NCBI GenBank assembly: GCA_022773945.1
Contig: JALFNS010000031.1
Coordinates: 1 to 57,539 of the forward strand
Direction of reading: 5' to 3'
Length of the DNA stretch: 57,539 nucleotides
DNA from: Clostridiales bacterium
GTDB lineage: Bacteria; Bacillota; Clostridia; Peptostreptococcales; Anaerovoracaceae
Both the position numbers and the translations under genes were made by a program. The notes below the pieces were generated by a model, which saw only the letters and a program-made list of their open reading frames with translations, was not told the origin of the DNA and searched no databases. Shown here in pieces: positions 5,491 through 43,090 of this stretch. Each line of letters opens with the position of its first letter. Positions within the stretch are counted from its first letter, which is position 1.

Positions 5491-5705
5491 TTCTGACAAA
5501 AATCTGTATATGAGAAAATTTTGTCAGTGAATTCCGGGATTTTTCTAAAATTGTATGAACATGCGGTGGTTATGCGCTCCCGGCTGTCAATATATGGCGG
5601 ATCAGAGCTGCGATATCCTTCGACACAGCGGTTCGAACACCGAAGCTTAAGCCGGGAATGCGAACTTCTGACAAAATCATTCTCATATCAATAATGTTGT
5701 CAGAA
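5491..5705. repeat. Spaced inverted-repeat array A1 (TTCTGACAA word)
   Basis: Two units are present. Unit 1 spans 5491-5529: TTCTGACAA, 21 bp, TTGTCAGTG. Unit 2 spans 5666-5705: TTCTGACAA, 22 bp, TTGTCAGAA. The cores of the two units are related in opposite orientation, sharing ATATGAGAA read on opposite strands. The 136 bp between the units also folds back weakly (ATTCCGGG and CCGGGAAT). The same word forms the array at 20816-21097. This array lies 68 bp after palindrome F1. Confidence 0.7.
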
Positions 5706-5828
5706 ATCCTCGAAATGTAACTTTTCGGGGTGAAATCGCAGCGTATAACCATTCGGAATCCATGCATAATTAAGTCAATAATTATGTCGTGTACAGTCTC
5801 GGCCGGTAACTTTAATATAGGAAAGAAC

Positions 5829-5854
5829 TTGCCAAAATATCGGGGGGTTATAAT
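5829..5854 (+). promoter_or_regulatory. Poly-G promoter of surface protein 1
   Basis: TTGCCA at 5829-5834 (5/6 match to -35) and TATAAT at 5849-5854 flank a spacer of only 14 bp that contains a run of six G (5842-5847). A spacer three bases longer would restore the optimal 17 bp. This suggests a slippage-controlled promoter currently in a poor spacing state. That is inference from sequence alone. Confidence 0.5.
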
Positions 5855-5861
5855 TGTTCCG

Positions 5862-5875
5862 TTAGACATGTCTAA
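5862..5875. promoter_or_regulatory. Perfect 14-bp palindrome at the transcription start
   Basis: TTAGACATGTCTAA is a perfect palindrome located 7 bp after the -10 box of the surface protein gene, where a repressor would block initiation. The binding protein is unknown. Confidence 0.45.
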
Positions 5876-5900
5876 ACGTGACATGGGAAGAGGAGGAAAT

Positions 5901-7739
5901 ATGAAAAAAAGCAGAAGCAGGAAACTGCTTGCTGTTCTGCTGGGATGCCTGATGATAATCGGGATAATGCCGGCGACAGCGAGTGCAGGCGGGGGTCCGG
6001 TTGCTAAAATCGGCTCAACAGAGTACGCAACTCTGGATGCGGCGGTTGCTGCAGCCGGTGACGGTGAAACGATTACGGTTCTGAAGAATTGTTCAACAGA
6101 AGGACTGAATCTTGACAAGAATCTTATAATCGAAGGCTATGGGAGTGATTACCCGGAAATTACATTTGATAAATACGGTATAGCCCTCTGGGGCAAGAGC
6201 CTGACATTCAAAACCTGTAAAGTCAAGATGAACGGGATAGGATCAACTCCATATATAGCAGAGTGGAACTGGATGGCAATCTGTGCAAGCAAGGATGCAT
6301 CACTGACGCTTGATAATGTTGAGATGACAATGGACGGAACTAATGCCGGCGATGCTCACGCAATCTATTTCTGCTCGAACAACAAGCTGAATATCAAAGG
6401 CTATTCTACTCTTAAAATCAGCAACTACGCTCAGGATGCCCTCGAGTGGGACGGTGGTGACGGCGGATACAATGTTAACATTGAGGACTCCACTTTTGTA
6501 GCTGATCATAACAGATCCGGATTTACCGGAACTTTCGTGGCAACAATCAAGAACAGCGACGTCCAGGTTATCAACAGCACAGGTAACGGTTCAAACGGGT
6601 CGAACTTTTATATAGAAGATTCGAAGGTTAATTTCTCGGACAATGGGTCACACGGACTGTCAGCGGGAAAACTTGAAGTTAGTGGTTCTGAAGTGACCTG
6701 CAACAACAACGGCGGAAACGGCATTCACACAACTAACGGATTTGACGTTAAGAATATTTCCGTAGTAACAGTAAAGAACAATGGCTGTACAATCAGCAGT
6801 AAGTGGACAATTCCGGGCGCTGTATATATCGGCAAAGGCGGCTCTATAGACGACAGCTGCACTTTGACCATTGAAGAGAATAAAGGATCGGGAATCCTGT
6901 TGAAGGGCGGAGAGTTTACTGCCAGTGAGGGTGTAACTTTAAGCATAAAGAAGAATGAAGCTGTTAAACTCGGTTATGGCGGAGGAATCAATGTATACCC
7001 TGGCGCAATCCTCAATCTCCCTGACGGCGTTGCACTCTACAACAACCATGCGCCTACTGCAGGTGATGATGTATATGTGGCTCCCGGTGGAACTGCAGTC
7101 ATCCCTAAAATCGGAAGCGACGAAGAAGACTGGGTTCTTGACGGTGAGCCGGACTGCAAAGAGCTTATTAACGGATGGTTTGATGATTCGGAGAATGTGA
7201 AAGAGTCGGATCACAACAGATGGAAGGCTCACGGAGACGATTCGAAAACATTCCATTATGTGAAGACCGATGCCGGCAAGAAGGTTGCAGAGAACAGCCC
7301 TGTAGCACTAAAGGCTGCCCATGGACTTATTAACGTCGATGTTAAGAAGGTATGGAAGCTGGACAACGGTGGACAGGCTACAGATTCTGTAACGGCAGTC
7401 CTTACGAAGGACGGAGAAGCCTACGATAAGGTGGTGCTCAGTGCTGATAACCATTGGGAACACACCTTCGAGTATCTTACTGATTCATGTGAATGGTACA
7501 TTGAAGAAGAACCTGTGGAAGGATTCGAAGCATACGTAATTGAAGAAGTGACCAACGACGGATTCTGCTATACGATTTGGAATGACGATATAGACCAGAC
7601 AGCTGTAGCCGGAGGAGAAGGTGGAGATGATGCAGCCGCCAAGACCGGGGACAACACGAACCTGATGCTCCTGCTGGCACTCGTACTCGCCAGCTGCATA
7701 GGCGGAGCTGCTGTAGTTCTCAAGAGAAAGAAAATATAG
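5901..7739 (+). CDS. Wall-anchored beta-helix surface protein with Cna-B domain
   Basis: A 612-residue exported protein. It starts with a Lys/Arg-rich signal peptide (cleavage after ATASA, about residue 29). A long region rich in short beta-strand turns (about 35-430) resembles a parallel right-handed beta-helix and opens with YATLDAAVAAAGDGETITVL, typical of such adhesins. A Cna-B-type domain follows (about 470-570; VKKVWKLDNG, then WEHTFEYL). The C-terminus has AAKTGD, a hydrophobic segment and KRKK, a sortase-type sorting signal that lacks the canonical Leu-Pro. The start at 5901 follows AGGAGG. Its signal peptide and tail resemble those of the next gene, so the two are architectural paralogues. 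The likely role is adhesion or surface interaction; the ligand is unknown. Confidence 0.75.
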   Translation: MKKSRSRKLLAVLLGCLMIIGIMPATASAGGGPVAKIGSTEYATLDAAVAAAGDGETITVLKNCSTEGLNLDKNLIIEGYGSDYPEITFDKYGIALWGKSLTFKTCKVKMNGIGSTPYIAEWNWMAICASKDASLTLDNVEMTMDGTNAGDAHAIYFCSNNKLNIKGYSTLKISNYAQDALEWDGGDGGYNVNIEDSTFVADHNRSGFTGTFVATIKNSDVQVINSTGNGSNGSNFYIEDSKVNFSDNGSHGLSAGKLEVSGSEVTCNNNGGNGIHTTNGFDVKNISVVTVKNNGCTISSKWTIPGAVYIGKGGSIDDSCTLTIEENKGSGILLKGGEFTASEGVTLSIKKNEAVKLGYGGGINVYPGAILNLPDGVALYNNHAPTAGDDVYVAPGGTAVIPKIGSDEEDWVLDGEPDCKELINGWFDDSENVKESDHNRWKAHGDDSKTFHYVKTDAGKKVAENSPVALKAAHGLINVDVKKVWKLDNGGQATDSVTAVLTKDGEAYDKVVLSADNHWEHTFEYLTDSCEWYIEEEPVEGFEAYVIEEVTNDGFCYTIWNDDIDQTAVAGGEGGDDAAAKTGDNTNLMLLLALVLASCIGGAAVVLKRKKI

Positions 7740-7774
7740 CAAGCGGCTGATTCTTGATAACAACTGAATAACAA

Positions 7775-7818
7775 ATATAAACACAGTCGGCATCTCAAGG
7801 TGTCGACTGTGTTTATAT
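7775..7818 (+). terminator. Long perfect hairpin after surface protein 1
   Basis: Fifteen-base perfect arms at 7775-7789 and 7804-7818 with a 14-nt loop. No U-run follows directly, so it may act as a first barrier or as mRNA 3'-end protection ahead of the stronger terminator at 7828-7855. Confidence 0.6.
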
Positions 7819-7827
7819 CTGCGATAG

Positions 7828-7855
7828 AAACGGGTTTGAGATTACCCGTTTTTTT
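7828..7855 (+). terminator. Rho-independent terminator
   Basis: AAACGGGT at 7828-7835 pairs with ACCCGTTT at 7844-7851, followed by an unbroken T run to 7855. It ends transcription of surface protein 1. Confidence 0.8.
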
Positions 7856-7901
7856 GTGGCGTAAATTTTCCGGTCGACTTGAGAAATTTCCAGTTATTAC
7901 C

Positions 7902-7931
7902 TAGACAAACCCCCTCGGGGGGGGGTAAAAT
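7902..7931 (+). promoter_or_regulatory. Poly-G promoter of surface protein 2
   Basis: TAGACA (7902-7907, 5/6) and TAAAAT (7926-7931, 5/6) flank an 18-bp spacer ending in nine consecutive G (7917-7925), preceded by five C. The arrangement parallels the promoter at 5829-5854 but with a workable spacing. Length change of the G-run would change spacing and promoter strength. Confidence 0.5.
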
Positions 7932-7999
7932 AAACGGACTATAAAGGGATATGAGAATGCAGAGATGAATTAAAACTGAGAAGAGGAGGAAATGAATTT

Positions 8000-9397
8000 A
8001 TGAAGAGAAGCAGGAAATTACTCGCGATACTGCTCGGAATTATAATGACCCTGGGCATGCTGCCCGCAGTGGCAAGCGCAGATGAAGGGACAGTGGTTAA
8101 GGTAACTAATCAGGATGAATTGATTGCCGCTGTTAACGCTGCGGAGAGTGGCAAAACTACAGTAATAGAGTTAGGTATTGGTAAGTTCACGCTTTACAAA
8201 CAGGGTGCGGACACTAAAGGCAAAGATCTTACCTTTGTCGGACAGGGTGCAGAGAAGACTGCCTGGGGAATCGGTGCAGAGATTCCGGATCCTGACAAGT
8301 TTGGAACGGAGTACAATAGCGACTATAGCTTTGATGGAGCTGGAACTATTACTTTTAAGAACATGACTCTTCAGTCGGGAGATGCTAATTATCTGGGATT
8401 CACTCGTCCGGACAATACAGTTGTAGAGAATTGTACGATTAACGGCAAGACTTTCTACTGGGGATATAATTCCGCAGAATTCCTTAACACAGTATTTACT
8501 TATGACGGAGATTATCCTATATGGGTATATTCTTCAAATAAAATGACTTTCGATGGGTGTTCATTCAGCGTTAAGAACGGAAGGGTAATAAATGTCGATG
8601 CGGATAACCAGAATGGAAAAACAGTTACAATTAACTTCAAGGATTGCAACGTAACGTCAGAGGCTCCTGCTAAAAGCGTGCTGAATATACATGACAGTCT
8701 TAAAACATGCGACTACGTAGTAAACTTCAGTGGAAACAATGTTGTTACAGGCCTTGAACCTAATAAGACAACATGTTCGAAATTATTCCAGGTAGAGAAT
8801 ACACCTAGTAGTAACAATGGCCATTTTGCGAAGGTAACCATCAACGGCGCCACCATTTGGGAAGACGGCGAAATGCTGGGCCATGAAGTAGACGCGGATG
8901 ACGGAACGAAGATATATACAGACGGTTACAAGGACAACGCCTACGATGTTGTGACGAGCAACTGGGAACCGACTGATGACAGGACCCACTACGTACGCAC
9001 AGTCAAGAAAACATGTCAGTACTGCGGATGGTCTGATGAGGCAGCTGAGACCGGCTACACAGTAACCTACATCGACGGAGTCGACGGTTCGATCTTTGCG
9101 AATAAGAGCGAAATCGCAGCTGAGGGAAGCAAGACTCCTGAGTTCGGTGAAGATCCTGTCAGAGAAGGATATACCTTCAAAGGCTGGAAGCCGGCTGTTG
9201 CAGAGACTGTAACAGCTAACGCCATCTACTCCGCTCAGTGGGAAGCTGTAGATGGGGCGGCAGGAACCGAAGATGGAGAGGACGGAAGCGATTCATCCAC
9301 CAAAACCGGTGACAGCACCAACCTTATGGTTCTCCTGGCGCTTCTCACAGCCAGCTTAGGCGGCGGAGCTGCTGCTCTCTACAGAAGAAGAGCATAG
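8000..9397 (+). CDS. Wall-anchored surface protein with Listeria-Bacteroides repeat
   Basis: A 465-residue exported protein. Its signal peptide is closely similar to that of the preceding surface protein (KRSRKLLAILLG start, cleavage after AVASA). A beta-helix-like region (about 30-300) is followed by a Cys-x2-Cys pair (TCQYCGW, about 337), then a Listeria-Bacteroides/InlB-type repeat (YTVTYIDG to YTFKGWKP, about 350-410). It ends in TKTGD, a hydrophobic stretch and RRRA, again a sortase-like tail without the Leu-Pro. The start at 8000 lies 10 bp after AGGAGG. A three-codon frame from 7992 overlaps it but is poorly spaced. It is probably an adhesin. No sortase gene lies in the window. Confidence 0.72.
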   Translation: MKRSRKLLAILLGIIMTLGMLPAVASADEGTVVKVTNQDELIAAVNAAESGKTTVIELGIGKFTLYKQGADTKGKDLTFVGQGAEKTAWGIGAEIPDPDKFGTEYNSDYSFDGAGTITFKNMTLQSGDANYLGFTRPDNTVVENCTINGKTFYWGYNSAEFLNTVFTYDGDYPIWVYSSNKMTFDGCSFSVKNGRVINVDADNQNGKTVTINFKDCNVTSEAPAKSVLNIHDSLKTCDYVVNFSGNNVVTGLEPNKTTCSKLFQVENTPSSNNGHFAKVTINGATIWEDGEMLGHEVDADDGTKIYTDGYKDNAYDVVTSNWEPTDDRTHYVRTVKKTCQYCGWSDEAAETGYTVTYIDGVDGSIFANKSEIAAEGSKTPEFGEDPVREGYTFKGWKPAVAETVTANAIYSAQWEAVDGAAGTEDGEDGSDSSTKTGDSTNLMVLLALLTASLGGGAAALYRRRA

Positions 9398-9439
9398 ACC
9401 GCAAAATCCATAAAAACAGAATATAAATCTAACAACAGC

Positions 9440-9486
9440 AGGGCTGCACTTTAACGTGAGTTGAACGTTAAGGTGTAGCTCTCTTT
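9440..9486 (+). terminator. Rho-independent terminator after surface protein 2
   Basis: Eighteen-base arms at 9440-9457 and 9465-9482, pairing with a few G-U pairs around a 7-nt loop, are followed by CTTTTG. It separates the surface protein gene from the repeat array and the histidine operon. Confidence 0.75.
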
Positions 9487-9506
9487 TGATTGTGAGGCAT
9501 GCCCTT

Positions 9507-9747
9507 TTTGTCCAAATTCGGAAGGATTTCTTCCTATGGACAATCCGCTGTCCATTTTTTAAAATCTTAAGGAGAATGGACAATAATAGGCGTGATAAAT
9601 TACATATATTACCATATATTGTCCGTTTCTTAATGTAATCAGAGAAAAAGGAGAATTATCTGGGTGTTTATTGTCCATACGGAGAAAGAATCTGACAGAA
9701 GGACAAATAATTGACCAATTCTCGTTAAACTATCGAAAATGGACAAT
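9507..9747. repeat. Spaced inverted-repeat array B (ATTGTCCAT word)
   Basis: Five units follow the rule ATTGTCCAT, 20-21 bp, ATGGACAAT, with some mismatches: 9507-9544, 9547-9584, 9618-9656, 9670-9707 and 9710-9747. Four are exactly 38 bp and one is 39 bp. Gaps between units are 2, 33, 13 and 2 bp. Cores differ, although the first (9516-9535) contains GATTTCTTCC, also seen in a core of array C2. The junction of units 1 and 2 makes the small hairpin ATGGACA-loop-TGTCCAT followed by T5, which could also terminate transcription. Confidence 0.7.
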
Positions 9748-9802
9748 TTCTCGACAAGACCGCGAGAACCCCACAATGTATCCCGGATTATTTTGTATAC
9801 AC

Positions 9803-9831
9803 TTGACAGAGTGAGGGATAAAGAGTATAAT
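9803..9831 (+). promoter_or_regulatory. Promoter of the histidine operon
   Basis: A perfect -35 TTGACA (9803-9808) and -10 TATAAT (9826-9831) lie 17 bp apart, a full-consensus sigma-A promoter. Such strength implies a repressor or attenuator. The triple repeat at 9846-9867 is the candidate operator. Confidence 0.85.
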
Positions 9832-9845
9832 TAGATACAGTTACG

Positions 9846-9867
9846 CGTTAACTCGTTAAAGCGTTAA
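9846..9867. promoter_or_regulatory. Triple CGTTAA direct repeat, candidate his operator
   Basis: CGTTAA occurs at 9846, 9854 and 9862, an exact 8-bp period starting about 8 bp after the predicted transcription start. A TrpR-family HisR/YerC-type repressor is a reasonable candidate because these control his operons in Firmicutes, but the match to a known motif was not verified. Confidence 0.5.
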
Positions 9868-9903
9868 AAACCGGAAACGGAAATACTTAAGAAAGGTGTA
9901 GAG

Positions 9904-10827
9904 ATGATAGACGAAAAGATACTTAGAACGGAAGAAAAGATAATATTCGCCCTGAGAGCTCTGTATAGCGAACACGGCTACAAGCCTGTCAGACTGAGCA
10001 AGTTCGAGGAGTATGAACTCTATGCCCATAACAAGGATTTCATAGGGGACGATCGGATTATCACATTTAATGACAGCAACGGCAAGCTCATGGCGCTGAA
10101 ACCGGACGTGACCTTGTCCATAGTCAAGAACGGCAAGGACATCCCGGGACATAAACAGAAAGTTTCCTATAATGAAAATATATACAGAACGACAGGCCGC
10201 GAGGGCCGCTTCAGTGAGATCATGCAGGCAGGGCTTGAATGTATCGGGGATATTGATTCGGAGGATATCCTGCAGGTAATCTCCCTGGCTGCACAGACAC
10301 TGGAGTTAATCTCTGAGGACTTCGTGCTCGAAATCTCCCATCTGGGAATTCTAAGCGCACTCCTCGGCGAGATCAGTGAGGACGAAAGCTTCCTCAAGAA
10401 GGCGGCGGAGTACATCAGAGCCAAGAACGTCCATGACATGGAGAAGCTCTGCCGCGAGCATGAAATCCCCGAAGAACAGGCGAAACGCCTCATAACCTTC
10501 ACGGGAATCTGCGGAGACCTGGACACGGTGATGGGACAGCTGGAGCCGATATGCACCACGGAAGCCACGGCAAAAGCTCTGGCAGAGTTCGAGGATGTGG
10601 GTCTGCGCATAAGAGAACTGGGCTACGGAGAAAGAATCATGTGCGATTTCTCCATAGTGAACAACATGAAATATTACAACGGAATAGTATTCCGCGGTTT
10701 TCTCAAGGGAATATACGAAGGCGTTCTTTCCGGAGGGCAGTATGACAACCTGCTGAAGAAGATGGGAAGAAAATCGGGAGCCATAGGCTTTGCTCTTTAC
10801 CTTGACAGACTGGAAGATATAATATAA
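9904..10827 (+). CDS. hisZ: ATP phosphoribosyltransferase regulatory subunit
   Basis: HisZ is a catalytically inactive relative of histidyl-tRNA synthetase that forms a complex with short-form HisG and confers histidine feedback control. The 307-residue protein retains the class II synthetase core (KPDVTLSIVKN near 62, YNENIYRT near 88, YYNGIVFRGF near 259, GGQYDNLL near 279) but lacks the anticodon-binding domain of a true HisRS. It is the first gene of the operon, with AAAGGTG ahead of the ATG. The next gene is the matching short HisG, which confirms the assignment. Confidence 0.92.
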   Translation: MIDEKILRTEEKIIFALRALYSEHGYKPVRLSKFEEYELYAHNKDFIGDDRIITFNDSNGKLMALKPDVTLSIVKNGKDIPGHKQKVSYNENIYRTTGREGRFSEIMQAGLECIGDIDSEDILQVISLAAQTLELISEDFVLEISHLGILSALLGEISEDESFLKKAAEYIRAKNVHDMEKLCREHEIPEEQAKRLITFTGICGDLDTVMGQLEPICTTEATAKALAEFEDVGLRIRELGYGERIMCDFSIVNNMKYYNGIVFRGFLKGIYEGVLSGGQYDNLLKKMGRKSGAIGFALYLDRLEDII

Positions 10828-10845
10828 GAAAGGAAGACACGACAG

Positions 10846-11466
10846 ATGATTAATATAGCTCTCCCGAAGGGAAGGCTCGGAGATAAAGTATACGATAAAT
10901 TCAAGGCCGCAGGTTACTCCTGCGAGACAATGGAGGAGAAGAACAGGAAGCTCATATTCACCGACGAGGAGAAGGGAGTCAAGTACTTCTGGGTAAAGCC
11001 CTCTGACGTATCCATATATGTGGAGAGAGGCGCCGCTGACATAGGCGTTGCCGGCAAGGACATTCTCCTGGAGAACGAGCCGGACATATACGAGCTTCTC
11101 GACCTGAACATAGGCAAATGCAGAATGTGCGTTGCCTCGGTCAAAGGCTTCGAGGACACAGGCAAGCGCACCCTGAAGGTCGCAACCAAATTCACCAATG
11201 TAGCCCGCAAATACTACAGCAGTCTGGGCAGAGACATAGATATAATCAAGCTGAACGGATCCATAGAGCTGGCCCCTATACTGGGACTGTCGGACGTCAT
11301 CGTGGACCTTGTGGAGACGGGAACCACACTTAAGGAGAACAACCTGGAGGTGCTGGAGACAATAGTTCCCATAAGCGCCCGCCTTATCGTCAATAAGGCC
11401 AGTTTCAAGTTCAAGAAAAAGGAGATAACGAGAATAGTAGAAAGTCTGAAGGAGCAGGTGGAGTGA
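10846..11466 (+). CDS. hisG: ATP phosphoribosyltransferase, short form
   Basis: Catalyses the first committed step of histidine synthesis, joining ATP and PRPP. At 206 residues it is the short form, which lacks the C-terminal regulatory ACT-like domain and needs HisZ. Typical motifs are ALPKGRLGDKVYD at the N-terminus, GAADIGVAGKDIL near 60 and the PRPP-binding segment DVIVDLVETGTTLKENNL near 151-168. It lies 18 bp after hisZ and stops one base before the hisC ATG. Confidence 0.95.
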   Translation: MINIALPKGRLGDKVYDKFKAAGYSCETMEEKNRKLIFTDEEKGVKYFWVKPSDVSIYVERGAADIGVAGKDILLENEPDIYELLDLNIGKCRMCVASVKGFEDTGKRTLKVATKFTNVARKYYSSLGRDIDIIKLNGSIELAPILGLSDVIVDLVETGTTLKENNLEVLETIVPISARLIVNKASFKFKKKEITRIVESLKEQVE

Positions 11467-11467
11467 T

Positions 11468-12532: not shown

Positions 12533-12533
12533 A

Positions 12534-20563: not shown

Positions 20564-20583
20564 GTAATGCATTATTTTCGAGT

Positions 20584-20731
20584 TTATGATATGGTGGCTT
20601 GGCTTGCCTTCCGACGAAGTGTGCAGCTGCTGATTCTTCAACGCAGGCTTATTGTTACAATGGCTATGCGATATGGAAACGCAGCTGTATCCTTGCCGGA
20701 GGACAAGTCAAGCCATCTGATATACATGAAG
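20584..20731. repeat. Imperfect palindrome F3 (foldback)
   Basis: The left arm (GGTGGCTTGGCTTG, then CTTCCGACGAAG, then GCAGCTGC) is complementary to the right arm (GCAGCTGTATCCTTG, CCGGAGG, then CAAGTCAAGCCATC) over about 50 bp with small bulges. The apex includes ATTG-TTA-CAAT. No open frame exists. Like F1 it lies immediately before a TTCTGACAA array. A GC-rich hairpin (GCCGC-CTTC-GCGGC) follows near 20752-20765. Confidence 0.65.
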
Positions 20732-20815
20732 ATAAAGTACAGCAGCGCGGCCGCCGCCTTCGCGGCAGCCTCGGGATAGATGATGAGACATCGAAAGGTC
20801 TTTGCTTGAAGCGAT

Positions 20816-21097
20816 TTCTGACAAAAACAACAAAATCGCGCCCCTCCTTGTCAGAACTCCGGTACGGGTTCCGCTGAATTCTGACAAAATATTAATGATA
20901 AGGGGATGCGTTGTCAGAACAGCGGAGGGTAACAGGGCAGATTCCTCCCGACTCTCCCCGCGATTCATACTCCGGCACTTCCGCAGGTCGGTTTTTCTGA
21001 CAAAGTATATTGCGATTCCTCGGTTCTTGTCAGAAAATCCCTCAACTTAGTCTCAGAGTCTGACAAAATATTTGTGAGGGCATAGGTTTTGTCAGAA
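20816..21097. repeat. Spaced inverted-repeat array A2 (TTCTGACAA word)
   Basis: Four units TTCTGACAA, 22-23 bp, TTGTCAGAA lie at 20816-20856, 20879-20919, 20995-21035 and 21058-21097. Seven of eight words are perfect and one has a single change (GTCTGACAA). Word starts fall at 20816, 20848, 20879, 20911, 20995, 21027, 21058 and 21089, that is steps of 32, 31, 32, 84, 32, 31 and 31, giving a 63-bp repeat period in both halves. Cores differ, but most begin with AA(A/T). The array ends 76 bp before the leu promoter. Confidence 0.8.
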
Positions 21098-21172
21098 ATT
21101 GCCTTAGGCTTTTCAATGATAAATGAACAGGCACAATACAAATAACAATTTGTAAAAATCGTACAAATTTTG

Positions 21173-21208: not shown

Positions 21209-21463
21209 CAAGGTTTAAATACAATATAATACAGATGCGATGAACGGAATAAATTCAGCTTTGGTATTTCAGAGAGCAGCCGGTGGGTGTGAGGCTGTAT
21301 ACGGAGCCGGATGTCTCACCCGGGAGCATGAAACTTAAAGCGGGCGTGTAGTCCTGCCGGAGAAGGAATGCCGGCAGCGGGAAGACCGAAAGAGCACGCC
21401 AATAAGAGTGGTACCGCGGAAGCCAAGGCCTTCGTCTCTTAGTGGGATGAAGGCGTATTTTTT
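21209..21463 (+). promoter_or_regulatory. T-box leader, leucine-specific
   Basis: A tRNA-sensing transcription attenuator. The T-box sequence GTGGTACCGCGG is at 21408-21419. It is followed by the terminator GCCTTCGTC (21428-21436) pairing with GATGAAGGC (21446-21454) and an interrupted T run to 21463. Stem I contains AGAGAGCA and a GGGTGTGAG/CTCACCC helix. The specifier loop has CTT, a leucine codon, at 21334-21336 just before the closing AAAGC helix. Uncharged tRNA-Leu would disrupt the terminator and allow expression of leuACDB. The 5' boundary is approximate. Confidence 0.88.
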
Positions 21464-24476: not shown

Positions 24477-24959
24477 ATGAAAGCACACGGCAAAGTACAT
24501 AAATACGGTGACAATATAGATACTGACGTTATAATCCCGGCCAGATATCTGAACACGGCGGACCACAAGGAGCTGGCAAGCCACTGCATGGTGGATATCG
24601 ACGAGGATTTCGTAAACAAGGTTAAGCCCGGCGATATAATGGTGGGCGGCGAGAACTTCGGATGCGGCTCCTCCAGAGAGCATGCGCCTATAGCCATCAA
24701 GACCAGCGGCATAGACTGCGTTATAGCCAAGACCTTCGCGCGCATTTTTTACCGCAACGCAATAAATATCGGGCTGCCGATTCTGGAGTGCCCGGAGGCA
24801 GGCGAGAGAATTGAAGCGGGAGACGAGGTGTCAATAGACTTTGACAATGGTATAATAACCAACGAAACCAAGGGCGAGACCTACCGGGCTCAGCCTTTCC
24901 CGGATTTCATCAAGGAAATTATGGCTAAGGGCGGACTCATGAAGAGTCTCACTGAATAG
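24477..24959 (+). CDS. leuD: 3-Isopropylmalate dehydratase small subunit
   Basis: The 160-residue swivel-domain partner of LeuC. It shows [14 protein letters not shown] at residues 13-26 and the substrate loop [13 protein letters not shown] near 61-73. Short length matches the archaeal/clostridial LeuCD type. It lies 9 bp after leuC and 10 bp before leuB. Confidence 0.93.
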
Positions 24960-24969
24960 AGGAGATAAG

Positions 24970-26040
24970 ATGAATTACAGAATAGCAGTTATACCGGGCG
25001 ACGGAATCGGCCCGGAGGTTGTGGAACAGACACTCAGAGTTCTCGATGCGGTAGGCGGGAAATACGGCCACAGCTTCGAGTACGTTAAGGCCCTGGCCGG
25101 CGGATGCGCCATCGATGAGAAGGGTGAGTGTCTGCCACAGGAAACGATTGATATATGCAAAGGCTCAGACGCAGTGCTTCTGGGCGCTGTAGGCGGATGG
25201 AAATGGGATACTCTTCCGGGTGATCAGCGTCCTGAAAGGGCTTTGCTCGGTCTCAGGAAGGAGCTCGGCCTCTTCGCCAATCTCCGTCCCGCACTTCTCT
25301 TCGACGAGCTGGCCGATGCCTGCCCGCTCAAGCCGGAAATCGTTGAGGGCGGTCTGGACATAGTGGTTGTAAGAGAGCTTACCGGAGGAATCTATTTCGG
25401 TGAAAAGGGTACGACAGACACGGATCTCGGTCCTGCCGCATACGATGTTGAACAGTATGCCGAGGGAGAGGTCAGAAGAATAGCCAAGGTTGCCTTCGAT
25501 ATGGCAATGAAGCGCGGGAAGAAGCTTACCAGCGTGGACAAGGCCAATGTTCTCGAGAGCTCGCGTCTCTGGAGAAGAGTGGTGGCTGAAGTGGCTGAGG
25601 ATTACCCTGAAGTTGAGGTCAACAATTTCTACATCGACAATGCGGCAATGCAGCTTGTGAGAAATCCTAAACAGTTCGATGTTATCGTGACCAGCAACAT
25701 CTTCGGAGATATTCTCTCAGATGAGGCCAGCATGATTACAGGTTCCATAGGAATGCTGCCGTCGGCGAGTCTGGCAGAAGGCAATTTCGGAATGTACGAG
25801 CCGGTACACGGTTCTGCGCCTGACATCGCAGGACAGAACATCGCCAATCCGATGGCGACGATTCTATCGGCTGCCATGATGCTCAGATACACCTTCGGTC
25901 TTGGCGAAGAAGCGGACTGTATAGAAAACGCTGTCAGGAAGGTCCTGGCTGACGGATGCAGAACCGCCGATATCGCCCGCGAAGGTGAGAAGGTATCGGG
26001 AACCCGTGAGACGGGAGATCTGATAGTGCAGGCGATTTAA
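24970..26040 (+). CDS. leuB: 3-Isopropylmalate dehydrogenase
   Basis: Oxidises and decarboxylates 3-isopropylmalate. The 356-residue protein has the LeuB substrate signature [21 protein letters not shown] (split here as [10 protein letters not shown] then [11 protein letters not shown], about 88-107). Metal-site aspartates are in [12 protein letters not shown] (about 239-250), and [12 protein letters not shown] near 278 with Asp after the Pro favours NAD. This contrasts with the isocitrate dehydrogenase paralogue at 2328-3455. It is the last leu gene, and array C1 begins 7 bp after its stop. Confidence 0.94.
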
Positions 26041-26046
26041 GACATA

Positions 26047-26355
26047 TGTATCTATAATCGAAGAAAGCATGAAAAATAGATACACCCAACCTCGCTGTGA
26101 GGATTGGCGTGTATCTATTTTCTTTGATTATAGGATTTATAGATAAATACACTTAAATCAAGTGGGGGCAAAACACCAAAAATGTTTGATATGCATCTAA
26201 ACCGGCACTTTCCGGTTGAATTAGATACGTGATGACGTCGAAATCCGAAGGGATTGTATCTATTTCAGAAAGAAATCGAAAAAATAGATACATAGGGCTT
26301 TCGGATTACAGACAGTATGTATCTAAAAATGGAGAAAACCTCTTAAATAGATACA
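26047..26355. repeat. Spaced inverted-repeat array C1 (TGTATCTAT word)
   Basis: Ten words alternate in orientation, TGTATCTAT then ATAGATACA, starting at 26047, 26076, 26110, 26139, 26192, 26221, 26255, 26284, 26318 and 26347. The steps are 29, 34, 29, 53, 29, 34, 29, 34 and 29. Each 29-bp step makes a 38-bp unit: word, 20 bp, inverted word. Six words are perfect. The four imperfect ones keep the same positions. The segment 26074-26121 also folds into a long stem (ATAGATACAC with GTGTATCTAT plus CCTC-loop-GAGG) and T run that may terminate leuB mRNA. The last word lies inside the final codons of the convergent aminotransferase gene. Confidence 0.85.
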
Positions 26356-27503
26356 TCCTGTCTGTCCGGGACCGCTTCGTATGCTTCGATAAAAGCTTCC
26401 TTGAGGCTGCACTTGAGTGTGTAGCCCAGATCTGCGAAGGTGCCGTCAAGGGCTTCCATGACTGCTGTCATATCTTCCAGGTTGGCGTTTTCGCCCATGT
26501 GACCGATTCTGAAGACTTTGCCTGCCAGAACGTCGAAGCATCCGGAAAGCATTATTCCGTACTTGTCTCTCATGGTTCCTAGAATCCGGCTGTCCGTGAG
26601 TCCGTCAGGAACTTCGATTACGGTAACCGTGTTCGAGAAGCCGTCCACAGGATACATGGAGAGTCCCGAAGCCTTCACTGCGCTGCGTGTGGCGGAGGCG
26701 ATTCTCTCGTGGCGGGCCAGAATGTCCTTGTCCGCTCTGACTCTGTCGAGAGCCTCTCTGAGTCCGATAATGTCGCTGATCGGCATAGTGTAAGGGAACC
26801 ACTTGTCCTCGTAATAGGTTTTGAAGGTGAGGAGGTTGGCGTAGAAGGAGGCCACAGGAGTCTTCCTGCTCTCCATAGCCTTCATGGCCTTGTCGCTTAC
26901 CCATACCATGCTCAGTCCCGGAGGCGCCGAAAGGGCCTTCTGGGAACCGCCGCAGAGGATGTCAATCTGACACTCGTTCACATTGAGATACTCTCCGAAC
27001 ATGCCCGCAACGGAATCGGCAACGGTGAGGATGCCGTATTCGGCCAGCAGAGGGCATATCTTCGAAAGATCGTTGAGAATGCCGCTCGGAGTGTCACAGT
27101 GAACTACTGTGGCGTATTTGAAATCTGAATCCTTGTCGAGGAATTCCTTAAGTGCGGCCGGATCAACGGGTCTTCTGTAATCGCAGGTGTACAGCACAGC
27201 TTCGCCTCCGTACATGGTGACGAAATCCGCGAAGCCTTTGCCGAAGATACCGTTGTCTATTACCAGCACTCTGTCTCCCGGCTCCGTAAGTGAAGCGCAT
27301 GCCGCCTCCAGCCCCAGGATTCCTTCCCCGCCGAGAATGTAGGCGGTACCTGAGGAGTGAAGAAGCTCCTGAAGAATATCACATGTTTCCTTGTAGAATT
27401 CAGCGAAATTCGGATCGAGGTCCGGGTTTGTGGTTTCCAGGCTTCTGGCCCGGCGCACGGATTCGTGAACCTGAGTAGGGCCTGCCGTCATTATCTTGTA
27501 CAT
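26343..27503 (-). CDS. Class V aminotransferase (serine-pyruvate/alanine-glyoxylate type)
   Basis: A 386-residue PLP enzyme of the class V family. It opens with MTAGPTQVHESV, and has the aromatic-free GEGILGLEAAC segment near 59, the PLP-phosphate Asp in VADSVAGMFG (about 171-180) and the Schiff-base lysine in GGSQKALSAPPG (about 195-206). Likely substrates are alanine, serine or glyoxylate; 2-aminoethylphosphonate-type activity cannot be excluded. AGAGGTGA precedes the start on the minus strand. It follows the ECF transporter gene by 25 bp, suggesting one transcript. Its final codons are built from a word of array C1. Confidence 0.83.
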   Translation of the reverse strand: MYKIMTAGPTQVHESVRRARSLETTNPDLDPNFAEFYKETCDILQELLHSSGTAYILGGEGILGLEAACASLTEPGDRVLVIDNGIFGKGFADFVTMYGGEAVLYTCDYRRPVDPAALKEFLDKDSDFKYATVVHCDTPSGILNDLSKICPLLAEYGILTVADSVAGMFGEYLNVNECQIDILCGGSQKALSAPPGLSMVWVSDKAMKAMESRKTPVASFYANLLTFKTYYEDKWFPYTMPISDIIGLREALDRVRADKDILARHERIASATRSAVKASGLSMYPVDGFSNTVTVIEVPDGLTDSRILGTMRDKYGIMLSGCFDVLAGKVFRIGHMGENANLEDMTAVMEALDGTFADLGYTLKCSLKEAFIEAYEAVPDRQDVSI

Positions 27504-33706: not shown

Positions 33707-33708
33707 GA

Positions 33709-34368: not shown

Positions 34369-34403
34369 CAAGATGTGGTAAAAACCACGATTTAAATAAT
34401 TTG

Positions 34404-34467
34404 CCGATATAAGCACGAAGAGATGGTTAGTGCGTTTCTACCGTAACGCCTCAGTTACGACTATTGG
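34404..34467 (+). promoter_or_regulatory. Purine (guanine-class) riboswitch aptamer
   Basis: P1 is CCGATA (34404-34409) with TATTGG (34462-34467), including one G-U pair. P2 is GCAC...GTGC with loop sequence containing ATGG. J2/3 is the conserved GTTTCTACC. P3 is GTAAC...GTTAC with loop GCCTCA, able to kiss the GG of L2. J3/1 reads GAC, so the ligand-pairing base is C, which indicates guanine/hypoxanthine. L3 is shorter than in the xpt riboswitch, so a variant specificity is possible. Confidence 0.82.
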
Positions 34468-34560
34468 TTGATTTGGGAGAGTCCGCGATCCGCCTTTCAT
34501 TTGAAAGTGAGATGTCACGTGAATTCCCTCGGAGCAACGGTTAGTCCCGTAGAAATTGGC

Positions 34561-34594: not shown

Positions 34595-34620
34595 AGGATT
34601 TTCATTTAAGGAGGAGAAGA

Positions 34621-35829: not shown

Positions 35830-35852
35830 ATAAAATTTACATACCAGCGGAA

Positions 35853-35875
35853 GCCCCGGTTTTAGCCGGGGTTTT
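35853..35875 (+). terminator. Intra-operon terminator or mRNA-stabilising hairpin
   Basis: CCCCGG (35854-35859) pairs with CCGGGG (35866-35871) and is followed by TTTT. Outer bases ACCA and TGGT extend the fold. It lies between the lipoprotein gene and the ATPase gene, and could set a higher level of lipoprotein than transporter. Confidence 0.65.
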
Positions 35876-35919
35876 CGTGGTATAATATGAACATTATTTC
35901 AGGAAAGGTGTTGATTAAT

Positions 35920-38554: not shown

Positions 38555-39541
38555 ATGTTTGATCTGGTTGCTTTTATCCCCAGAGCTATAGTTCAGGGAA
38601 TGCCCCTCCTCTTCGGATGTACGGGTGAGACTATTTCAGAGAAGGCGGGAAGTCTTAATCTGGGAATCCCGGGTGTAATGTACGTAGGCGGAATATGCGG
38701 CGTTATAGGCTCGTTCCTCTATGAGCAGAACTGCAGCGGAGAGCTCAATGCTTTTCTGGCCATATTCATTCCGATGCTTTCATGTATTCTGGGTTCGCTT
38801 CTGATGGGACTGCTCTTCAGCGTGCTTACGGTAACGCTGAGGGCCAATCAGAATGTTGTGGGTCTGGCCATGACCACCTTCGGTGTGGGCTTCGGCAATT
38901 TCTTCGGTGGCTCTCTAATGAAGCTCACCGGAAGCTCTGTGCCGTCGATTGCGCTGTCAAAGACGAGTCACTTCTTCAGCAGAAGTCTGCCTTTCGCAGG
39001 TGATCTGGGATGGTTCGGCAAGATATTCTTTTCCTACGGATTCCTGACTTATCTGGCAGTGGCCATAGCCATAGTAACAGGCTATGTGCTCACGCATACC
39101 AGAACCGGACTCAATCTCCGTGCAGTCGGTGAGAATCCGGCTACTGCAGATGCGGCGGGAATCAATGTTAACAGATACAAGTACGTGGCAATATGTGCAG
39201 GCTGCATGATAGCAGGTCTGGGCGGGCTCTTCTATGTTATGGACTACGCCAGCGGCGTATGGTCCAACGATGCCTTCGGTGACAGAGGATGGCTGGCTAT
39301 AGCCCTGGTAATATTCACGCTGTGGAAGCCTAACATAGCCATATTCGGTTCCATTCTCTTCGGAGGACTCTACATTCTCAACCTGTTTATACCGGGTGCG
39401 GGAATGGCGGTTAAGGAACTGTACAAGATGCTTCCTTATCTGGTTACCATAATCGTTCTGGTATTCACCAGCGTCAGGAAGAGGAGAGAGGATCAGCCAC
39501 CTGAAAGTCTGGGACTGCCATACTTCAGGGAAGATCGATGA
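38555..39541 (+). CDS. Nucleoside ABC transporter permease 2
   Basis: A 328-residue polytopic permease (NupQ/YufQ-like). It shows the family start ATG then AIVQGMPLLFGCTGETISEK split by the membrane anchor, SLNLGIPGVMYVGG near 31-44, and the conserved RAVGENPATADAAGINV near 190-206. AGGAAAGGAGG precedes the start directly after the first permease stop. It completes a BMP-ATPase-permease-permease purine uptake system. Confidence 0.87.
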   Translation: MFDLVAFIPRAIVQGMPLLFGCTGETISEKAGSLNLGIPGVMYVGGICGVIGSFLYEQNCSGELNAFLAIFIPMLSCILGSLLMGLLFSVLTVTLRANQNVVGLAMTTFGVGFGNFFGGSLMKLTGSSVPSIALSKTSHFFSRSLPFAGDLGWFGKIFFSYGFLTYLAVAIAIVTGYVLTHTRTGLNLRAVGENPATADAAGINVNRYKYVAICAGCMIAGLGGLFYVMDYASGVWSNDAFGDRGWLAIALVIFTLWKPNIAIFGSILFGGLYILNLFIPGAGMAVKELYKMLPYLVTIIVLVFTSVRKRREDQPPESLGLPYFREDR

Positions 39542-39550
39542 AGCGTAAGC

Positions 39551-42500
39551 ATGCTTAATGTATATTACGGGGACAACACCCGAAACAGAGAAAAATTCAT
39601 ATTTGACAGAATAGATCCCGGTGAGAGGACGATTCTCATCGTGCCGGATCAGTATTCACTCAGGGCGGAGCAGCTCGCTTTCGAGTATCTGGGAACCGAC
39701 AGTTTCCTGAATCTCATGGTGGCTGACTTCTCCTCCCTGGGGCACAAGGTTGTCAGCAAGGCGGGAATTCGCGAGGACAGGCTTATAGACAAGTACGGAA
39801 GACATATGATTCTTTCGGAGATAATCGAAAACCTGTCCCCAGAGCTCACTGTGTTCGGCAGGGAGAAGAATGCGAATTCCTTCGTCAGCAGCATGAACGA
39901 TATGATATCGGGAATGAAGCGGCAGGGCCTGACTCCGAAGGATCTCGAAGGGTATTTCGAGAACGGTGAGGAAGAGGGCTGGCTGGGCTGCAAGCTCAGG
40001 GACATATGCAGCATATATTCCGCCTACGAGGATGCTGTTGCGGACAAGTATGTGGATCCGGAGGATTACATACGGCTCTACGGGGAACTTATGTCACAAT
40101 CAGAAATAATAAGGGGAGCGTCAATCTGGATATACGGATTTGACACGTTCACTCCCCTTAATTTTCTTATAATAAGGAAGCTGGCCGAAGGGGCGGCTTC
40201 TGTTAACGTGGTCGTAACCTGGGAACCGGAGGAAGTTTCGGGAGAGAGGCCTCGGGATGCCAGAATCATCCTTCCGGGAGAAGGTGAAGGTCTGTTCGCT
40301 TTATCCGGATATATAATGAAGGTTCTCGAAGAAGCGGCAGATGAGGACGGAATTCCCTACAGTGCAGTTTCCATGGATGAGATGGAGGTCTGCGATGAGC
40401 AGCCCTCGGGACTCTGGGAGAATCCTTCGTCTGAATCGATAAGCCTCGTGGAGACCACCGGAGTCTATGATGAGGCGGAGCGTGCCGCCCTCTACATAAT
40501 GAAGCTGGTGAGAGATGAAGGCTTCAGATTCGGAGATATCGCTGTCATATGCAATGATACGGAGCTGAGAGGGGACATTCTGGATAGGACGCTGAGAAGA
40601 TGGGGAATACCGTGTTTCGCCGATACTAGGAGAAAGGTTCTTCATCAGCCGGCTGTGAGCTTTATTATGGCCCTGCTGGAGATGACCGTATCCGGGATAA
40701 GAAGCGACAGTGTCATAACCATGTTCAAGACGGGTCTCTGGGACATAGAGAGCCGTGACTGCGAGCTTGTGGAAAATTACATAAGTGAGTACAGAATCAG
40801 AAGCTCCGCCTGGAACAGGGAATTCACCGGTAACAGAGGTGACTACACTCCTGAGGAGATGGCGAAGCTTAATGAAATACGCGAGAGGACCGTCTCCTTC
40901 GTAAACAGTCTCAAGGACGAGATGGGCAGACGAAACACTGCCGGAGAGAAGATAAGAGGACTGTATTCCTTCCTGGAGGACAGCATGTCCATGAGGGACA
41001 GAATAGCGGAGCTTGTTGACAGGCAGCGTGAGCTGGGTCTGGCGGAGGCTGCCGCGGAGACGGCCCAGAGCTGGAACATAATATGTGAAGTCTTCGATCA
41101 GATAGTGAGGATAGCCGGAGAGCGGCGACTGTCAAATGAAACCCTCTCATCTCTCGTTTCGGCAGGTTTCGAGGAGATGGAGATAGGAATAGTGCCTCAG
41201 ACCGGCGACTGCGTGATAATAGGAACGATGCAGAGAACAAGGCTCAGCTCGGTAAGAGCCCTTATCGTGACGGGAGCCAATGAGGGCATTCTTCCCGCAG
41301 GACGAAGCAGCGGAGGACTTCTCAGCATGAGAGAGCTTCGCAGGCTTGAGGAGATGGATATTGCGATTGCCGGAAATGAGGAAATGGCAAGGCAGGAGGA
41401 GCAGCTGGCAATGTACAGAATGTTCTCGGCTCCGAGGGAGAAGCTTTATGTGAGCTGCGCTCTTTCGGATCATGAAGGGAAGAGCATAGCCCCGGCGGGG
41501 GTGTTTCTGACTTTGCAGGAGCTGCTGGGAGAAGAGGCGGTATCGCGCCATATCGATTCCTGCGAATATATCGCATCTCCGGGGGCATCGATGCCTTATG
41601 TTGCCGATGCGGTGCGTGAGTACGGCGACAGGGGAGAGATAGATAATGAGTGGCTGCATGCCATAAGATGGTACAGAGACAATATGCCTGAGAGATACGA
41701 GCTTCTCCTTAAAGGGGCAGGCTTCTCAAACAGGGTTGAGCCTCTGGGAGAGGAACTGGCGGACGAGATCTTCACGCGAGACGGAGAAACGCTTTATGCC
41801 AGCGCATCCCGTCTGGAGAGATACAGCAGCTGTCCTTTCATGCACTTCATGGACTACGGCCTGCGTGTCAGAGAAGAGAGGGAGTTCAGCGTCGACGCAC
41901 GCGATATAGGAACTCTGTATCACGAATGCATCATGAAATTTTCGGAGCGGCTGACTTCGGGCGAGGGCAAAGGCATCAGGGGTGAGAATTCCCCGTGGAT
42001 GAGAATTACCAGGCAGGAGTGCAGCGATCTTATAGGCGAGATTCTTCAGGAGGACAGAAGTCTTAACGGGGGAGTCTTCGAATCCGGCGGGGAGTCCGAG
42101 TTCCGCATGAAGCGCGTGCAGGATGTGTGCTCGGACGTGGCCTGGGCTCTGGTCTGTCAGGTGAGAAGCGGCTCCGTAAGAGAGATGCATTTCGAGGAGA
42201 AGTTCCGCAGGGAAACGGCTGACGGAGATAAAAAAACGGTGGTCACAGGTGCCATCGACAGGCTGGATGTCATAGATGTGGAGGAGGATGATATGAACCC
42301 TCCGCGCAGAGCTCTGAGGATAATAGATTACAAGACCGGGAACAATTCCGTGAATCCGGAGTATTTCAGAAGCGGATATAAGCTCCAGCTGACCATGTAC
42401 ATGAACGAGGCTCTGGAGAGAATCAAGGCGGATCCGGCGGGAATATACTATTTCAAGATTCACGATTTCATGGAAAAGAAGGATTCAGGCGGCGCTCTCG

Positions 42501-42904
42501 ACGACAGACTGAGGAAGGCCTACAGACTGGAGGGCATAGTTCCCGATAACTTCAGGACGATATGTGCCATGGACAGAGGGATGGAACAGGCTGCAGCTGC
42601 GAACAGGGGAATCGCTTCCGAAGTCATCCCGGTAAAATATGTAAAGAAGGACGGTTGTTTCGCTTCGGCTTCAAAAGGCACGCTCATGGGCGAAGAGGAG
42701 TTCCGTGAGCTCTGTGACGAAACGGAGAAGCAGGTGGACAGAATCTGCGGAGAGATACGATCGGGCAGGATTGACATTTCCCCGGCGAGGGAGAAGACGG
42801 CAGACGCCGACGGCAAGCGGATGAACGCATGCAAATACTGCAGGTTCAGAAGCGTGTGCATGTTTGACAGAGCCTTCCCGGACTGTCGGTACCGGGACGT
42901 TTAA
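39551..42904 (+). CDS. addB: ATP-dependent nuclease subunit B (AddB)
   Basis: The AddB subunit of the AddAB helicase-nuclease that resects double-strand breaks for recombination, 1117 residues. The C-terminal RecB-like nuclease (about 780-1080) keeps GTLYHECIMKF and the catalytic IIDYKTGNN. The four iron-sulfur cysteines are in SCPFMHFM (about 766) and NACKYCRFRSVC (about 1095-1106). The N-terminal nucleotide-binding motif is degraded: the GxxGxGKT expected in Bacillus AddB is replaced by YYGDNTRNREK. addA, usually adjacent, is not downstream within the window. The gene starts 9 bp after the second permease, so it may share the purine-uptake transcript. Confidence 0.86.
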   Translation: MLNVYYGDNTRNREKFIFDRIDPGERTILIVPDQYSLRAEQLAFEYLGTDSFLNLMVADFSSLGHKVVSKAGIREDRLIDKYGRHMILSEIIENLSPELTVFGREKNANSFVSSMNDMISGMKRQGLTPKDLEGYFENGEEEGWLGCKLRDICSIYSAYEDAVADKYVDPEDYIRLYGELMSQSEIIRGASIWIYGFDTFTPLNFLIIRKLAEGAASVNVVVTWEPEEVSGERPRDARIILPGEGEGLFALSGYIMKVLEEAADEDGIPYSAVSMDEMEVCDEQPSGLWENPSSESISLVETTGVYDEAERAALYIMKLVRDEGFRFGDIAVICNDTELRGDILDRTLRRWGIPCFADTRRKVLHQPAVSFIMALLEMTVSGIRSDSVITMFKTGLWDIESRDCELVENYISEYRIRSSAWNREFTGNRGDYTPEEMAKLNEIRERTVSFVNSLKDEMGRRNTAGEKIRGLYSFLEDSMSMRDRIAELVDRQRELGLAEAAAETAQSWNIICEVFDQIVRIAGERRLSNETLSSLVSAGFEEMEIGIVPQTGDCVIIGTMQRTRLSSVRALIVTGANEGILPAGRSSGGLLSMRELRRLEEMDIAIAGNEEMARQEEQLAMYRMFSAPREKLYVSCALSDHEGKSIAPAGVFLTLQELLGEEAVSRHIDSCEYIASPGASMPYVADAVREYGDRGEIDNEWLHAIRWYRDNMPERYELLLKGAGFSNRVEPLGEELADEIFTRDGETLYASASRLERYSSCPFMHFMDYGLRVREEREFSVDARDIGTLYHECIMKFSERLTSGEGKGIRGENSPWMRITRQECSDLIGEILQEDRSLNGGVFESGGESEFRMKRVQDVCSDVAWALVCQVRSGSVREMHFEEKFRRETADGDKKTVVTGAIDRLDVIDVEEDDMNPPRRALRIIDYKTGNNSVNPEYFRSGYKLQLTMYMNEALERIKADPAGIYYFKIHDFMEKKDSGGALDDRLRKAYRLEGIVPDNFRTICAMDRGMEQAAAANRGIASEVIPVKYVKKDGCFASASKGTLMGEEEFRELCDETEKQVDRICGEIRSGRIDISPAREKTADADGKRMNACKYCRFRSVCMFDRAFPDCRYRDV

Positions 42905-42926
42905 AGCTGCTCCGTTTAGACATATT

Positions 42927-43090
42927 ATTATCTGTATTTCACAGTTTCCTTTATTTTGGATACATGCAGGCAGTGGTCCGAAAGGTACTGTTATCTAGAT
43001 TCTTGATTTCTTCCTGAAATAGATACAGACCACTCTTCACAGCGAAGATGGCTGTATCTATTTTTAATGATTTCTTCAATTCTGGACATA
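42927..43090. repeat. Spaced inverted-repeat array C2 (TGTATCTAT word)
   Basis: The words of array C1 recur here with the same phasing. Clear sites start at 42956 (TTGGATACA), 42990 (GTTATCTAG), 43019 (ATAGATACA, perfect) and 43053 (TGTATCTAT, perfect), steps 34, 29 and 34. Weak words at 42927 and 43082 continue the 29-bp rule. The perfect pair encloses CTTC-ACAGC-GAAG, giving a 43-nt hairpin. Cores at 42999-43018 and 43062-43081 share GATTTCTTC. Confidence 0.75.

Follow-up and report, generated by a model that had tools for sequence, protein, structure and literature searches.

Dispersed arrays of inverted word pairs in a Clostridiales genome: an apparently undescribed, probably mobile protein-docking element

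This analysis revealed that five intergenic regions in a 57,539-nucleotide stretch of DNA from a Clostridiales bacterium of the Anaerovoracaceae (GenBank assembly GCA_022773945.1, contig JALFNS010000031.1, positions 1 to 57,539; hereafter the window) belong to families of arrays that appear to represent a type of element not yet described, one that docks proteins and is probably mobile. In each unit of these arrays, a short word is followed by a core and by the same word inverted, and successive units mostly lie whole helical turns apart. The arrays are dispersed through the host genome, and relatives carry the same plan in other words. A partnership between a mobile element and a nuclease appears to be the best fit to the movement, the word turnover and the gene linkage described below. 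The window is contig 29 of a 1.83-Mb genome in 50 contigs, with a GC content of 50%.

Layout and helical spacing of the arrays

A preliminary description of the window had reported paired words in five regions, and all five carry them where it placed them:

20816..21097, no strand assigned: family A full element; ten genome places, its own counted, match almost all of the 289-base query, with identities of 76-100%.
5491..5705, no strand assigned: family A two-unit (short) element, with units 175 bp apart.
9507..9747, no strand assigned: family B element; words ATTGTCCAT/ATGGACAAT with 0-2 mismatches, ten of ten family positions filled at exact offsets.
26047..26355, no strand assigned: family C full element; five units, words TGTATCTAT/ATAGATACA with 0-2 mismatches.
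42927..43090, reverse orientation: family C fragment; words at 42956, 43019 and 43053, partner words degenerate.

The units of that description are present (a word of 8-11 bp that is not self-palindromic, a core of 18-27 bp and the inverted word, 34-43 bp in all), but they are parts of larger elements whose offsets are fixed in families A, B and C. Full elements are rigid, span 240-310 bp and hold 8-10 words of alternating orientation; shorter forms also occur. The element at 20816..21097 contains eight TTCTGACAA/TTGTCAGAA words at offsets 0, 32, 63, 95, 179, 211, 242 and 273, and its outer ends are GATTTCTGACAA...TTGTCAGAAAT. The family A plan is 0>, 32<, 63>, 95<, followed by 83-84 bp (subfamily A1) or 73-74 bp (A2) and a repeat of the first half; the 15 elements measured in detail (ten A1 and five A2 copies) have word steps of 31-32 bp, with single steps of 30 and 33. 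Most full A copies end in terminal inverted repeats of about 12 bp, GATTTCTGACAA / TTGTCAGAAATC, as do miniature inverted-repeat transposable elements (MITEs). The short form at 5491..5705 resembles host copies on contigs C23 (L229, 176 bp) and C2 (L108, 157 bp). The window copy of family B shows no offset shift from the family plan (0>, 29<, 40>, 69<, 111>, 141<, 163>, 192<, 203>, 232<). With regard to family C, the plan at locus L060 is 0>, 29<, 63>, 92<, 146>, 175<, 209>, 238<, 272>, 301<, and the full window copy (0, 29, 63, 92, 145, 174, 208, 237, 271, 300) is 1 bp shorter after 92; two pieces of the fragment at 42927..43090 match the 26043 element at 77% and 82% identity. The cores give a weak signal for an AAATC-like motif at their centre (27 of 203 units, against 10.5 at the ends).

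Spacing between units, which had been described as loose, is fixed within a family and clusters on whole helical turns across families. In a first list of 12 spacings, one per family and hand-compiled from earlier measurements, R was 0.85 at 10.5 bp per turn (p=2.7e-5) and slightly higher at 10.6. At 15 later loci, with spacings of 40, 42, 52, 62-64, 72-75, 82, 92, 115 and 135-136 bp, R was 0.86 at 10.5 bp and phase 0. Since one of their words, TTGACGAA, was already in the first list and two words occurred twice, the retest was made on 12 words outside that list, with one spacing each; it gave R=0.86 (p=2.2e-5 at 10.5 bp, phase 0), with lower values at 9.5-10.3 and 10.7-11.5 bp. The 63-bp, six-turn period first seen in the window was borne out. 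Length changes between copies also come close to whole turns (83 versus 73 bp in A, 163 versus 173 bp in B at L055, and a C copy shorter by 31 bp at L045). Spacings of 40 (B and CCTACCAT), 82, 92, 145 and 175-176 bp are off phase by 0.2-0.3 turn.

It is a well-supported prediction from this geometry that the arrays are helically phased docking sites on duplex DNA. Each unit would dock a protein dimer, with one subunit per word, and two to nine units set mostly at whole turns (about 4 to 13) would bring the dimers onto one face of the helix. Dimers on the same face may then assemble into a single nucleoprotein body, be it stacked, wrapped or looped.

In families A, B and C, bases beside the words overall pair no more often than expected, cores and spacers fold near the level of shuffled sequence (family mean z between -0.6 and 0.1), and searches of Rfam at gathering thresholds and at E up to 0.5 gave no match on the arrays. 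The absence of extra pairing and the shuffle-level folding argue that duplex DNA, rather than RNA hairpins, seems to be what gets read. It is therefore highly improbable that the arrays are repeated RNA hairpins, as had been suggested, or single-strand hairpins with 9-bp stems acting as terminators, mRNA stabilisers or structures of the REPIN type (REPIN, repetitive extragenic palindrome doublet forming a hairpin); for A, B and C the RNA reading was rejected. Hairpins of RNA would not need helical-turn spacing either, and word changes are mostly confined to one arm: in family A, 31 affect one arm only and 4 are symmetric, which does not support the earlier proposal that pairing or two-fold symmetry is under selection. 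What hairpins would explain is the hairpin-like first inter-unit spacer of several family C copies and the cores of families D and E that lengthen the stem. A further point against the duplex reading comes from arrays with the word TTTCGACG, found in two relatives, where, of seven positions next to the word, two pair more often than expected (position 2 clearly, 47 versus 31.9 of 68 units; position 1 marginally, 58 versus 53.6, p 0.03), so that in these arrays pairing, or a symmetric reading, may to some extent reach past the word.

Dispersal, word turnover and selection on the words

The genome-wide scan and the shuffle control that the preliminary description had proposed were both carried out, and both upheld the arrays. 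Exact places in the host genome number 31 for family A, 15 for C and 9 for B (8-letter arms for C and B), with 0 for each in the reversed-pattern control. The window holds 4 perfect family A units, compared with 0 across 100 shuffles that preserve dinucleotides. One de novo scan, to which no words were supplied, found arrays in host DNA and 0 in shuffled host DNA, and a more sensitive one found 19 arrays in 0.49 Mb of host DNA versus 0 in 1.71 Mb of shuffled sequence. Decayed arrays escape these scanners, which require two near-identical units; the sensitive scan misses the window B array and the 42927 fragment because their words are imperfect. DNA searches gave 16 matches with the A element, ten of them nearly full-length, 8 with B and 14 match lines with C, some of which are parts or reverse-strand matches of the same elements. 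Two more word families occur in the host, one of TTGTACAC type (C25, C9 and C1) and one with ATGTATTC (a single locus, L101). The arrays lie at 30 places between convergent or co-directional open reading frames (ORFs) and at 5 between divergent ones, a count based on 36 rows for 35 arrays (one place twice) and on crude ORF calls, with a spanning ORF flagged in two rows.

Lone exact words outside arrays, counted in 457 kb, make up 10 of 44 for A, 5 of 17 for B and 1 of 26 for C; the first-order Markov expectation of all such words is 4.6, 4.6 and 3.1. A role as uptake sequences, as that class is generally understood, was rejected given that few words lie outside arrays, though lone A words reach about twice expectation.

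Among 41 genomes, the triple-word pattern of family A was found in the host alone; the others comprise 24 congeners and 16 further members of the order, the latter covered for the A word only. One named genome record carries an A element, the metagenome-assembled genome SUG1106, which is 100% identical to host contig C23 over 3,284 bp and therefore belongs to the same species. Other words are found in congeners. Exact places of TTTTCGACG (the TTTCGACG pattern) occur in two of 49 genomes, 63 in G053 and 26 in G048; the reversed control gave 0-2 places per genome, with one each in G024 and G053 and two in G001. De novo scanning also recovered AGTCTCCA in G053; TTTTGTGTA, TTTTATGT and TTGACGAA in G022; CCTACCAT, CTCTGCCA, TTTCTGCG, AAAACTTC, ATTCGAGA and a TTGCAGA word in G047; TTCACCGT in G062; and ATTACCCG, GATACATT and GAACTTTT in G042 (GATACATT only with the first scanner), among others. 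G023 showed no array over 159 kb in the first scan and, in the sensitive scan, one three-unit array on C5; stretches of 80 kb each sampled from G018 and G024 contained no array. The single architecture that the preliminary description had seen in the window is present in several genomes of the genus: relatives carry the same plan spelled in other words, and from species to species within the genus the word families are replaced.

Two arrays are common to the sister species G048 and G053 in conserved gene order. Their words are identical at 70/70 and 69/71 positions, their cores at 85/98 and 62/99, their spacers at 95/113 and 75/112, and the outside DNA at 57/89 and 85/119. Pooled, words (139/141) differ sharply from cores and spacers (317/422; Fisher p=1e-12); the pairs were found through their words, and the chance of 69/71 at the background identity of 63-67% is negligible. 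As the words are near-identical and the cores and spacers have diverged, these two loci in two species show that words are kept by selection in place. Within family A, words are 97.6% identical in A1 versus 67-83% for the rest of the element, and 92.8% in A2 versus 51-58%, with shuffles at 46-51%.

Evidence of movement comes from similarity that is confined to the array. The G048 array at L266:983-1280 is 87% identical to the G053 array at L269, in an unrelated place, and the match ends about at the array. Host A copies also share little past the element, with the exception of a flanking repeat common to C10 and C11. Such array-only similarity at unrelated loci implies that elements have moved, and their spread to new intergenic sites is thereby shown, if indirectly. 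The genes that flank three G048/G053 arrays have relatives in the host genome that lie more than 2 kb from any array of family A, B or C. In G052, gene order around window position 20816 is kept, but about 20565-21148, array included, is replaced by other DNA, and there is no array downstream of leuB. One pair of G053 arrays is explained by segmental duplication.

The dispersed copies, the terminal inverted repeats of family A and the lack of an array downstream of leuB in G052 could also be explained if the arrays were plain MITE-like debris, that is, non-autonomous transposon ends moved in trans, with several transposase sites and no function in place. The arrays share with MITE, BOX and RUP elements (see PMC3049150) the character of small non-coding dispersed repeats and, in family A, terminal inverted repeats; they differ in having internal phased sites, words constrained in place and no target-site duplication (none in 14 copies). 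The words remain intact where cores, spacers and middles have diverged, in orthologous arrays too, and no transposase-like family was noticed among the 25 largest paralog groups, judged by eye in 402 ORFs (about a quarter of the genome). We regard this explanation as quite unlikely.

Nuclease genes beside the arrays

Comparison of the genes neighbouring arrays across species with different words led to two nuclease families, Rpn (PF12784, TIGR01784) and an unnamed one. Three proteins of the unnamed family had no Pfam match when searched singly, two had no NCBIfam match, and 24 members together gave only scattered weak Pfam matches. In the C-terminal part, the PADLOC model PDC-S68 matched 24 of these 24, PDC-S69 18 and HEAT_CxxC_PD-DEXK 12. 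This last match and a conserved PDF...WEH pattern suggest that the family is PD-(D/E)XK-like; a profile search of solved structures gave nothing significant, the best matches being a MarR regulator (E 0.14) and T7 endonuclease I (0.96). Phage and plasmid relatives share the C-terminal part only (three plasmid and two phage records). No arrays were detected in the two phage records, in one of which (L321) the domain ends a 1200-aa protein that is helicase-like by appearance, and three viral-contig scans with single nucleases found no relative.

With one scanner, arrays were found at 14 of 30 nuclease loci, 7 of 19 Rpn loci, 2 of 20 Y1_Tnp loci and 1 of 29 leuB loci, against a background of 8 arrays in 1.22 Mb of other non-host stretches. 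The nuclease loci differ from the leuB loci (Fisher 1.7e-4). Since the leuB loci also come from other genomes of the genus, the density in bulk stretches is the fairer background; against it, the Poisson probability is about 4e-11, a figure that counted five host loci where four are in the set. Without the discovery loci L291, L292 and L303, of which the first two are orthologs, the nuclease count is 11/27 (Poisson 4e-9), and without L279 and L282, which gave the idea, the Rpn count is 5/17 (Poisson 1e-4). Nuclease and Rpn loci were drawn from nine selected genomes, in seven of which arrays had already been found, and the Rpn set overlaps in part (L289 with L282, L275 with L298). The bulk stretches include the same nine genomes except G042, represented by loci only, and overlap two scored loci (L123 = L300, L245 = L219). 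The nine genomes have 1-14 match lines to the unnamed nuclease, 5 of them in the host, and five of the nine have Rpn.

The genes lie close to the arrays, on either side. In 15 gene-array rows, the gap is 16-205 bp in eleven and about 950-980 bp in two, and the array overlaps the called gene in two. Three host nucleases have arrays about 100 bp away or closer, of family C for C6, D for C25 and B for C32; the one on C32, outside the scored loci, starts about 96 bp from its array. On C9 (L298, L275), the nuclease gene is directly followed by an Rpn gene and then by a TTGTACAC array, about 1 kb away. The single nuclease match in G048 has an array beside it, and an array with a 72-73 bp period was seen by eye at L310. 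Words at nuclease- and Rpn-linked arrays mostly differ from locus to locus.

Rpn proteins are the recombination-promoting (YhgA-like) nucleases, and the passages on repeats, palindromes and binding sites in PMC5350276 describe no such arrays beside them. Several array-bearing genomes have no Rpn match. At L278 (G053:C82), four-unit TTTCGACG arrays stand on both sides of an Rpn gene. At L269 (G053:C54), positions 1038-1704, a nine-unit TTTCGACG array with spacings of 73, 73 and 94 repeated, equivalent to a 240-bp tandem repeat of a three-unit block, adjoins another. On host contig C1, about 24500-27050 (L059, L060, L279), some 2.5 kb contain two C arrays and a five-unit TTGTACACG array (period 74-75 bp), together with an Rpn fragment and another Rpn gene that has a single internal stop.

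Other features were noted besides the arrays. Dispersed intergenic repeats of other kinds, several of them abutting arrays, occur at 5290-5490 and 47201-47480 of the window and at L022, L031, L047, L110 and L113, with matching pieces of 23-240 bp and 72-100% identity among copies. A T-box leader upstream of leuA (21231-21442; 76.7 bits, E 6.8e-15, below the Rfam gathering score of 93) starts about 130 bp past the family A array at 20816..21097, and a purine riboswitch aptamer is found at 34385-34483.

Proposed partnership and comparison with known systems

On balance, we favour a pair resembling REPINs and RAYTs (REP-associated tyrosine transposases, REP standing for repetitive extragenic palindrome), in which a dispersed element is served by a low-copy enzyme, a nuclease replaces the Y1 transposase and helical phasing replaces hairpins. 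The element would spread as a whole to new intergenic sites, selection would afterwards keep its words, and from one species to the next new word families would take the place of old. Array-adjacent PD-(D/E)XK-like nuclease genes, sometimes with an Rpn gene, most likely encode the partner. The linkage itself is observed; the word would be read by the nuclease or by a co-factor, and the nuclease may mobilise the arrays, be parked on them or be controlled by them. A more specific version, which we hold only tentatively, is that fast-diversifying nuclease copies are each paired with an array family of their own word on duplex DNA, built to helical register, with or without Rpn; nuclease and word would replace each other between species as RAYTs and REPINs do, and the arrays would be kept by selection after insertion. 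The earlier idea of multi-site binding arrays with changed specificity was supported.

REPIN/RAYT systems, as presented in parts of PMC3116915, have several word groups per genome, each with a cluster beside its own single-copy enzyme gene. The arrays resemble them in being dispersed, intergenic, paired inverted words in several groups, some of them with an array beside a nuclease gene. They differ in that the linked gene encodes a PD-(D/E)XK-like nuclease rather than a Y1 transposase, that units are 34-43 bp long with no stem past the word in A, B and C, and that several units at helical turns form one element. A RAYT was rejected as mobiliser, since a search of the host genome (G000, 98.6% complete) for Y1_Tnp (PF01797) gave 0 matches; 14 of 49 genomes of the genus have one. 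Bacterial interspersed mosaic elements and REP sequences also consist of a short word alternating in orientation in intergenic arrays (PMC2817692), whereas the present words are not self-palindromic, their offsets are fixed near whole turns, and the two words tested genus-wide are confined to one or two species. Unlike clustered regularly interspaced short palindromic repeats (CRISPR), the repeats alternate in orientation, and no tandem direct-repeat array was found at these places; cas genes were not searched for. No description of such an element was recognised in the open-access literature, subscription journals and preprints being outside its scope.

The main rival holds that the arrays are operators or nucleoid-architecture sites for an unlinked oligomeric regulator with Lrp-like wrapping, kept by the cell as insulators or anchors, and that the nuclease linkage reflects shared accessory regions. 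Sites two or three helical turns apart on one face, in a wrapped nucleoprotein, are described for Lrp proteins in parts of PMC2995911. Our arrays show whole-turn spacing too, with off-phase exceptions, and both the conservation of words in place and the predominance of convergent or co-directional neighbours suit such a role. It is nevertheless hard to reconcile with word families that turn over between species of one genus, with array-only similarity that joins unrelated loci, and with accessory nuclease genes that have arrays within about 200 bp far above background. The arrays differ from phased Lrp-type operators in being dispersed, apparently mobile, species-specific in their words and nuclease-linked, and we consider this explanation unlikely.

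In res, each subsite is a pair of inverted half-sites, the spacers vary, and the subsites are set in helical register; some array words (TTGTC...) resemble res half-sites. Both points would suit a res-like role, in which the arrays serve a serine or tyrosine recombinase as multi-site accessory recombination sites. Dispersal in dozens of copies per genome and word turnover are not res-like, and this origin is scarcely credible, although no search aimed at a recombinase was made.

Several observations weigh against the partnership with a nuclease. With regard to mobility, target-site duplications are missing from the 14 copies, host flanks are no more alike than swapped flanks, and full-element searches of the assembly, which consists of short contigs, found no autonomous copy. 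The preliminary description had suggested looking for a protein family that goes with the words, and this was answered in part: the nuclease family is often adjacent to arrays, but similarity among nucleases is no guide to similarity among words (Mantel r=0.00, 15 gene-word pairs), and the nuclease as sole reader of the word was rejected on this result. The host nucleases on C6 and C9 are 72% identical, with words no closer than the mean of all pairs. One of the five host nucleases, on C10, has no array, none of the five is beside a family A array, and family E is also unmatched. Rpn copy number does not track arrays, as G048, with its 26 exact units, has no match to Rpn; the nuclease-linked arrays at L300, L305, L312 and L317 have only 2-3 detected units with AT-rich words; and of the arrays listed in G053 the majority have no nuclease next to them.

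If the proposed reading is true, the arrays would be an interspersed element with a conserved grammar, the helical-turn spacing, and a replaced vocabulary, the word. They would provide more than a dozen natural word-gene pairs for the study of changing DNA-binding specificity. Questions that would open to test are why dozens of such sites are retained in place in one genome, what the accessory PD-(D/E)XK and Rpn nucleases bind at home, and whether orphan nucleases may mobilise repeats, or be held by them, as RAYTs are thought to.

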